Source: an uncultured Clostridia bacterium
Lineage (GTDB): Bacteria; Bacillota; Clostridia; Lutisporales; Lutisporaceae
Direction: 5' to 3'
NCBI GenBank assembly: GCA_937930535.1
Contig: CALGKJ010000016.1
Location: 1-64,000 of the forward strand
DNA length: 64,000 bases
Position numbers and translations under genes: made by a program. A model generated the notes under the pieces. That model was not told where the DNA came from and did no database searches. It worked only from the letters and a program-made list of their open reading frames with translations. Below are positions 2,830 through 53,751 of the stretch, piece after piece (position 1 is the stretch's first letter; the number at the start of each line of letters is the position of its first letter).

Positions 2830-3653
2830 TTTTTATCCTCCTCAAATTCAATTCTGATTATTTTGTGCCGTCCCTTTCTCTTGTTTTCCGGCGGAGGGGT
2901 CATATAATCTCCATAGAAATAGGTAAGGTAATCCTTATAAGCCTTAAAGCAGGATAGTTCATGTTTTTCAAATTGAATACTTGTAAGATTGGTCATCCAG
3001 CTTTTTTTTATAGATTCCTTCCAATAGCCGTATGCTCCTCCAAAGGTAACGACGTACTCAGAATCATGGGAATTATATTTTATCTGCTGCTTATACAGCA
3101 TTTTCTTTACCTGTCCTATTGTCAACAACTTGGTTATCAGGTTTACAGCTTTGTAAATGAATTTTTTCAGCTTTTCATTTTCCTCCCAGACCTCGTATTT
3201 AAGCTTTATCAGCAATATTCGTTTTAGTATATAGGTAGCTCTGTTTTGATGCTTTTGCCTAGAAATACTGCTTGGTACGTTATCAAAGGGGAATATGTCA
3301 ATGTATACTCCATTATGCAAATCTGATTTCGAAGAATTATGCTCAATAAACCTTGTACCGTTTTTTCTCAGCTTTGCAATAGGTAAAGCAAAGCCCGGAT
3401 CTGTTTCCCAAGTCTGTAGAAAATACTCATCCTTAAGCTCGGTTTTTGCCACAGCAACAAACTTATCATAGTCTTTTCTTAACATTCCAATGTCCAAATC
3501 ATCATCCCAGGGTATGAAGCCTTTGTGTCTGACTGCCCCTAACAGAGTTCCAGCAATCAAAGAATAATTGATTTGGTGTTTTTCGCATATTCTTTTTACC
3601 TCTAATGCCATTTCCAGTTGTACCTTATGTACTCGTTCCATTAAAATATCCAT
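2826..3653 (-). CDS. LicD-family phosphotransferase
   Basis: LicD/fukutin-family enzymes transfer a phospho-alcohol (phosphocholine, or phospho-alditol from a CDP donor) onto a glycan. The family signature is clear: AGTLLGAVRHKG (residues about 34-45), then IPWDDDLDIGM (about 47-57), whose aspartates bind metal. The 275-residue length is typical. The coupled tagD gene implies CDP-glycerol as donor, so I infer that it adds glycerol phosphate to the polysaccharide repeat unit. It has a good GGAG site upstream and begins 27 bp after a glycosyltransferase gene. Confidence 0.88.
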   Translation of the reverse strand: MDILMERVHKVQLEMALEVKRICEKHQINYSLIAGTLLGAVRHKGFIPWDDDLDIGMLRKDYDKFVAVAKTELKDEYFLQTWETDPGFALPIAKLRKNGTRFIEHNSSKSDLHNGVYIDIFPFDNVPSSISRQKHQNRATYILKRILLIKLKYEVWEENEKLKKFIYKAVNLITKLLTIGQVKKMLYKQQIKYNSHDSEYVVTFGGAYGYWKESIKKSWMTNLTSIQFEKHELSCFKAYKDYLTYFYGDYMTPPPENKRKGRHKIIRIEFEEDKK

Positions 3654-53384: not shown

Positions 53385-53715
53385 TTCTAGGGTGGTGTTG
53401 GCTTGCAGAACTTTCTGGGATTTCTAAAGACCAGGAAAGATGTTCTTGCACCCGCACTCATACCCGTATTTTATTCTTGTGGTTATTATTTCTAGCTGAC
53501 CTGGTTTTTTACCCCACACCCGCCGTCTGGAAGGTTCGCTACTAAGAATTAACTCCTCACTACTACCACTCTCATTCACCATAAATTGTCTATGCATGAA
53601 TGGACGGACTTACATCTAAACCGCACCATGCTCACAGGAATTTTTCCTGCTTACGTGGATCGTTTCGCCTGCGGCTGGCATCGATTTTCAACCACAGACC
53701 TAGATAATGAACCAC
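53385..53715 (-). ncRNA. Large structured RNA, possibly a raiA-type RNA or cis-regulatory leader
   Basis: About 330 nt with unusually high G+C for a spacer. On the minus strand it has a canonical promoter, then stems AGCCGCA/TGCGGTT, CAGGAA/TTCCTG, CATTCA/TGAATG, CCGTC/GACGG (closing a large junction) and ACCAGG/CCTGGT. At the 3' end AAATCCC can pair with GGGATTTTT, overlapping the zinc-ribbon ribosome-binding site. No reading frame covers it. Known RNase P, tmRNA and SRP signatures are absent. raiA RNA is suggested only by size, class and location near hpf. Confidence 0.6.
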
Positions 53716-53722
53716 AAATATT

Positions 53723-53751
53723 ATTATATAATTATATTGTTGAATACACAA
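53723..53751 (-). promoter_or_regulatory. Sigma-A promoter of the structured RNA
   Basis: On the minus strand TTGTGT (53746-53751), a 17-bp spacer and TATAAT (53723-53728). Transcription should begin near 53715, at the 5' edge of the structured RNA. Confidence 0.65.

Follow-up and report, generated by a model that had tools for sequence, protein, structure and literature searches.

The locus studied here lies on the minus strand of a 64,000-nucleotide stretch of DNA (the window), where a gene-free interval precedes the gene of a zinc-ribbon protein, and the question it raises is whether this interval encodes a stand-alone RNA, a regulator of the gene behind it, or both. The initial annotation had guessed at raiA RNA or at an unnamed cis-regulator. 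raiA, also called ModT, is described as a stable, abundant RNA that influences both the growth transition and sporulation of C. difficile in trans (PMC11706538). It has been reported from more than 2,500 species and ranks with the most abundant RNAs of C. difficile, and its molecular function is not established (PMC11706538, PMC11751092, PMC12286853); its structure has been solved (PMC11751092, PMC12286853). A role as cis-regulator was discounted for two reasons: one paper relates that raiA was hypothesized to be no riboswitch, as no expression platform lies downstream (PMC11751092), and another places it often hundreds of nucleotides from the following gene (PMC11477304). In addition, raiA of C. 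difficile complements from another locus, and the authors regard a cis riboswitch role there as excluded; their report mentions trans action in two tested species, C. difficile and, by a cited study, C. acetobutylicum (PMC11706538).

Identity of the RNA and its promoter

The Rfam covariance model RF03072 matches positions 53708-53487 (minus strand) over its full length (model positions 1-209) with 183.7 bits, the gathering cut-off being 101.3, and the search that the initial annotation had proposed for its raiA guess thus leaves hardly any doubt that this stretch is the known raiA (ModT) RNA, judged from its sequence. It is the only raiA copy found in the genome, and raiA is present in 18 of the 22 genomes of the order to which the window belongs, the four lacking it being 71-86% complete. 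The interval is indeed free of genes, only short mechanical open reading frames lying over the RNA, and its G+C content of 0.417 exceeds that of four neighbouring spacers (0.26-0.29), as had been remarked. The RNA measures 203-227 nt across the loci of the order, leaving out one copy containing Ns, hence its conservation does not follow a reading frame; conservation that did so had been named as the outcome that would speak against a structured RNA. The Rfam structure contains two of the three stems proposed earlier, AGCCGCA/TGCGGTT and CCGTC/GACGG. The third, ACCAGG/CCTGGT, is complementary yet not conserved, and we rejected it as a stem between raiA and the downstream segment: ACCA is part of the raiA closing stem, CCTGGT is found in genus g1 only (CCTGG also in g5), and in g1 the predicted partner of CCTGGT is codons 2-4 of the zinc-ribbon gene.

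A sigma-A type promoter is predicted at 53751-53723 (minus strand), with TTGTGT (53751-53746) and TATAAT (53728-53723) separated by a 17-nt spacer and a start near 53717. TATAAT is nearly invariant in alignment A2. Of 16 loci examined, the window among them, 15 keep the TTG of the -35 element at 17-nt spacing and one has it at 18 nt. The promoter with perfect spacing of the initial annotation holds for the spacer and the -10 box; a strong -35 it does not have, since TTGTGT matches the consensus at only 3 of 6 positions, which is also why a consensus scan missed it. An extended closing stem P1 of raiA, pairing 53717-53701 with 53494-53477, is predicted in all 16 of these loci despite their differing sequences, with raw predicted energies of -8.3 to -13.2 kcal/mol. 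It begins 0-8 nt past the -10 box, which fits transcription starting near 53717. This table of 16 omits L042 and L035, the latter having lost its promoter region at a contig end.

Gene order and transcript

The gene that follows (53366-53085, minus strand, Shine-Dalgarno AGAGGG at 53380-53375) encodes a 93-residue two-domain zf_Tbcl protein (PF13451 plus PF23477/TIGR04272), a small cysteine-rich protein with two predicted zinc-binding domains; the zf_Tbcl and zf_Tbcl_2 profiles score 88.1 and 68.2 bits, both above their curated cut-offs, and TIGR04272 68.5 bits. In all 18 raiA loci of the order its start codon lies 110-120 nt past the raiA match on the same strand, so that promoter, raiA, an intervening segment and zf follow each other in fixed order. 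A simple scan found terminator-like sites between raiA and zf in 0 of the 18 loci and downstream of zf in 16 of them (in the window an intrinsic terminator-like site at 53078-53059, minus strand). Together with the promoter, this makes a single transcript likely, and we consider that raiA and zf are probably transcribed as one.

It should be noted that L042 (genome G019) is kept for arrangement, conservation, pairing to the AUG and the terminator scan (n = 18) and dropped from the counts on folds, covariance model, start-region swaps and all later pairing tests, its segment being nearly that of L025 and its raiA containing Ns; L029, L030 and L041 belong to other families and not to the order.

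The wider neighbourhood is also well conserved. Upstream lie flagellar genes (FlgN-like, FliS, FliD and FlaG), the FlgN-like gene being the immediate neighbour; FliS and FlgN-like are found in 16 of the 18 loci, L035 being cut by a contig end and L037 being without them over 2.5 kb. Second downstream of the RNA comes hpf, a gene of the raiA protein family that a 639-bp spacer separates from zf; it is likewise found in 16 of 18, with L028 cut and L025 without hpf over 7 kb. Quoted figures for raiA neighbourhoods are 66% for the hpf/raiA gene and 74% for comFC (PMC11706538). The locus resembles other members of RF03072 in its full-length match, sigma-A type promoter, closing stem and hpf as second gene downstream, and differs in having FlgN-like and not comFC upstream, and in that no terminator-like site follows the RNA, which is succeeded by a conserved segment and the zf_Tbcl gene.

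The spacer between zf and hpf failed as a neutral control because it holds two conserved elements of its own. Three tandem 9-mers stand at 52922-52887 (minus strand), reading TTATCAACA GAG TTATGCACA TTATCCACA, which we take to be DnaA-box-like; of the order's 17 other loci, 15 have similar blocks, as do L029 and L030. A conserved block before hpf (52528-52446, minus strand) contains AGGATTATT and GAATAAA and resembles a sigma-H promoter. Behind hpf, a 216-residue open reading frame (51566-50916, minus strand) without Pfam or NCBIfam match recurs in 15 of the 18 loci.

A conserved segment between raiA and zf

The segment between the two genes (53486-53367, minus strand; 110-120 nt across the order) is conserved in sequence in the 18 raiA loci. 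At E ≤ 1 no Rfam family overlaps it in the window or in the loci of the 7 relatives scanned. A covariance model was built from 7 sequences representing three genera; the 10 sequences held out, which come from three further genera, are all recovered by it in the corresponding position (E 7e-11 to 0.015). Searched against 393 genomes of the class, this model matches every one of the sample's 10 members of the order (E at most 0.034), and its best match outside the order has E 0.196; the weak matches in 13 outside genomes (E 0.196 to 0.936) were taken as chance. None of the four raiA-less genomes of the order contains the segment. One of them (G004, 86% complete) carries a divergent zf without raiA. 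We count both observations against reading the segment as a switch.

Folded alone, 17 segments adopt broadly the same tiered hairpin (53465-53390, minus strand, in the window; tiers GGGU/ACCC, GUG/CAC, GG/CC, GAAC/GUUC and UGG/CCA), a predicted state in which the ribosome-binding site is free. In a model-guided alignment of the 17 sequences 95.8% of its cells are paired. Three properties count against a switch: covariation is weak, most pairs being invariant and two-sided changes occurring at 2 of 16 pairs; the stability of the hairpin is modest (mean folding z -1.39); and the whole segment of the window has a folding z of +0.30. RNAalifold on a plain MAFFT alignment (A1), whose 3' half is out of register between genera, gave 3 invariant pairs only and no covariation, and was discarded.

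Complementarity to the start of the zf gene

The loop region of the tiered hairpin holds a strand (53436-53417, minus strand) complementary to the Shine-Dalgarno sequence, start codon and codons 2-4 of zf (53377-53356, minus strand), in which AGAGGGATTTT is invariant (18/18). The predicted helix comprises 18 pairs at -21.1 kcal/mol in the window, so that the pairing of the 3' end with the ribosome-binding site, already noticed in the initial annotation, extends through the AUG into the reading frame.

Four target lengths were tried. With the target reaching codon 4, the mean duplex energy over six genera is -19.4 kcal/mol vs -12.2 (sd 0.71) after shuffling of the segments, and none of 400 shuffles is as low; 15 of 17 sequences are individually below p = 0.05 (L024 and L040 are not significant), and only 4 of 720 permutations in which start regions were swapped between genera pair as well. 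A target ending at the AUG gives 0/1000 shuffles, 6/720 permutations and 10 of 18 sequences at p<0.05 (window p 0.062), one ending at codon 3 gives 0/1000, 2/720 and 12 of 17, and one ending at codon 8 gives 0/400, 1/720 and 16 of 17. The complementarity is hence matched within lineages: the outer pairs of the helix track lineage-specific differences in the spacer between Shine-Dalgarno and AUG and in codons 2-4, including a matched synonymous change at codon 2, TTT opposite A in L023 and TTC opposite G in L027, L035 and L036. The innermost pairs cannot covary because they face the Shine-Dalgarno sequence, the 3' side of this core, which is invariant. A control target inside the gene, from codon 21 on, shows mild excess pairing as well (3 of 200 shuffles as low), hence part of the signal may be compositional.

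Since the complementary strand sits inside the tiered hairpin, the two folds are mutually exclusive, and from this we infer that the segment alternates between them. Predicted energies favour the masking fold in 14 of 17 sequences (for the window by 1.9 kcal/mol) and slightly favour the fold with a free Shine-Dalgarno in the other 3. On balance, we find it somewhat likely, from the predicted pairing, that masking of the Shine-Dalgarno sequence is a real function.

Beyond the order, none of 49 raiA-zf loci tested to codon 8 reached p<0.05 (median p 0.47), their shorter spacers making the tested segment shorter too, and masking was accordingly rejected as a general trait of raiA-zf loci. L048 of the Clostridiaceae has an 89-nt spacer (positions 2912-3000) with what by eye is a different hairpin-like insert; it shows no excess pairing with the ribosome-binding site (p 0.34). 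In L061, L072, L075, L087, L088, L090 and L097, also raiA-zf loci outside the order, the Shine-Dalgarno and the bases before the AUG form by eye a tiny hairpin-like repeat (GGGGAATATCCCATG and similar).

raiA and zf genes in other Clostridia

GTDB genomes were scanned with the zf alignment and the best 80 loci analysed. A raiA RNA lies directly upstream of zf on the same strand in 50 of these best 80; outside the order the gap is 32-89 nt in 49 loci and 36-50 nt in 44, usually about 40 nt. In the class sample, counted by hand and taking E ≤ 1e-28 as a two-domain zf, 84 of 393 genomes have raiA, 23 of these with zf directly downstream and 4 with zf on another contig. At genome level co-occurrence is not raised (27 of 84 raiA genomes vs about 106 of 309 others), which rules out zf as an obligate partner of raiA among these 393 genomes. 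Where both exist, raiA and zf usually form one unit. This link is not mentioned in the text consulted of four raiA papers (PMC11706538, PMC11751092, PMC12286853, PMC11477304), and literature searches on raiA with zinc ribbons and on the zf family showed no report of it among the papers listed.

Where raiA is missing, a tRNA-like RNA often lies in front of the zf_Tbcl gene, within about 110 nt of its start. A pattern search gave candidates, several of them doubtful, in 15 of the 30 raiA-less zf loci among the best 80; the 15 picked by eye are L053, L070, L078, L079, L080, L082, L083, L098, L103, L106, L112, L114, L116, L120 and L121. In their consensus the three firm pairs of the D-arm hold in 14-15 of 15, with one two-sided change counted, and the T-arm in 15 of 15; by eye, the acceptor stems differ yet pair and the "anticodon" loops are very short. 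Scanned in 11 loci, the element exceeds the cut-off of the Rfam tRNA model in 2; ARAGORN reports 0 genes in 18 loci, but it also overlooked what is probably a genuine tRNA near the end of L080.

A model of a possible switch and its alternatives

We lean slightly towards a reading in which raiA is the 5' leader of the zf_Tbcl mRNA and the segment 53486-53367 a translational switch, predicted to turn the gene off by pairing with its ribosome-binding site, start codon and first codons. The segment, which is uncatalogued and separate from raiA, looks like a cis-regulator of zf in its conservation, its covariance model and its putative masking helix, so that both guesses of the initial annotation find their place, each in a different part of the interval. 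Behind raiA it is new, a candidate expression platform in this lineage. According to this model, transcription would first yield the tiered hairpin (53465-53390), as its strands are made before the Shine-Dalgarno sequence, which would be left free; unless the hairpin is held, the 18 pairs of the masking helix (53436-53417/53377-53356) would afterwards replace it.

Such a leader would resemble a translational riboswitch with a masking platform, having two exclusive predicted folds downstream of a large structured RNA, one of them over the Shine-Dalgarno and AUG. It differs in that no ligand is known for raiA, that the masking helix extends into codons 2-4, and that raiA acts in trans in two tested species (PMC11706538). 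It is also like the long isoform ModT(L) of C. difficile, a 3' extension of raiA; that extension is about 45 nt and is attributed to read-through into an intrinsic terminator (PMC11706538), whereas here about 110 nt lead to the start region of the gene.

As to what holds or releases the hairpin, our first choice would be the adjoining raiA RNA, through the way it is folded or bound by protein, with the zf protein also a first candidate. If the state of raiA were the signal, zf synthesis would be tied to the growth-phase signal that raiA carries, and the stable RNA would go on acting in trans as well; that raiA is the sensor of the switch is a tentative idea. The alternative signal, that the zf protein itself binds the tiered hairpin or raiA and feeds back on its own translation, like many RNA-binding proteins, is possible to the same doubtful degree. 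A small cysteine-rich protein with two predicted zinc-binding domains would suit such a role, and a gene often placed directly behind raiA or a tRNA-like RNA in other Clostridia is what one would expect if it recognised structured RNA; on the other hand, its predicted fold found no match in a PDB structure search at E ≤ 0.001 (the sequence itself reached a best E of 0.021 against the PDB), a literature search by the family names (zf_Tbcl PF13451 / PF23477, TIGR04272) gave no paper, and many genomes have zf without raiA.

Alternatively, processing could release raiA as an independent RNA that acts in trans; the segment would then be a processing or stability region and its pairing with the start region a by-product. 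The trans action and the long and short 3' isoforms described for C. difficile (PMC11706538) agree with this, and with no terminator-like site splitting raiA from zf, freeing raiA would need processing; we think it unlikely, as the pairing follows lineage-specific codon and spacer changes, which is not expected of a by-product. Least probable is an RNA thermometer or other self-melting element with raiA as a mere neighbour from the same promoter, which the long masking helix would allow, as would the small predicted energy difference between the two states in several species, amounting to 1.9 kcal/mol for the window; against it, simple melting would not need a second conserved, mutually exclusive hairpin.

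Returning to the translational switch, its furthest-reaching version would have raiA act in cis in this order and serve a riboswitch-like leader as sensor: the state of raiA, dependent on growth phase, would set the masking of the zf start, and the zf product would be its long-sought protein partner; we regard this as improbable at present. zf may be a neighbour under the control of raiA, an RNA so far regarded as acting at a distance, and the candidate platform in this order, together with the tight zf linkage in many other Clostridia, offers a concrete gene and protein to test for raiA.
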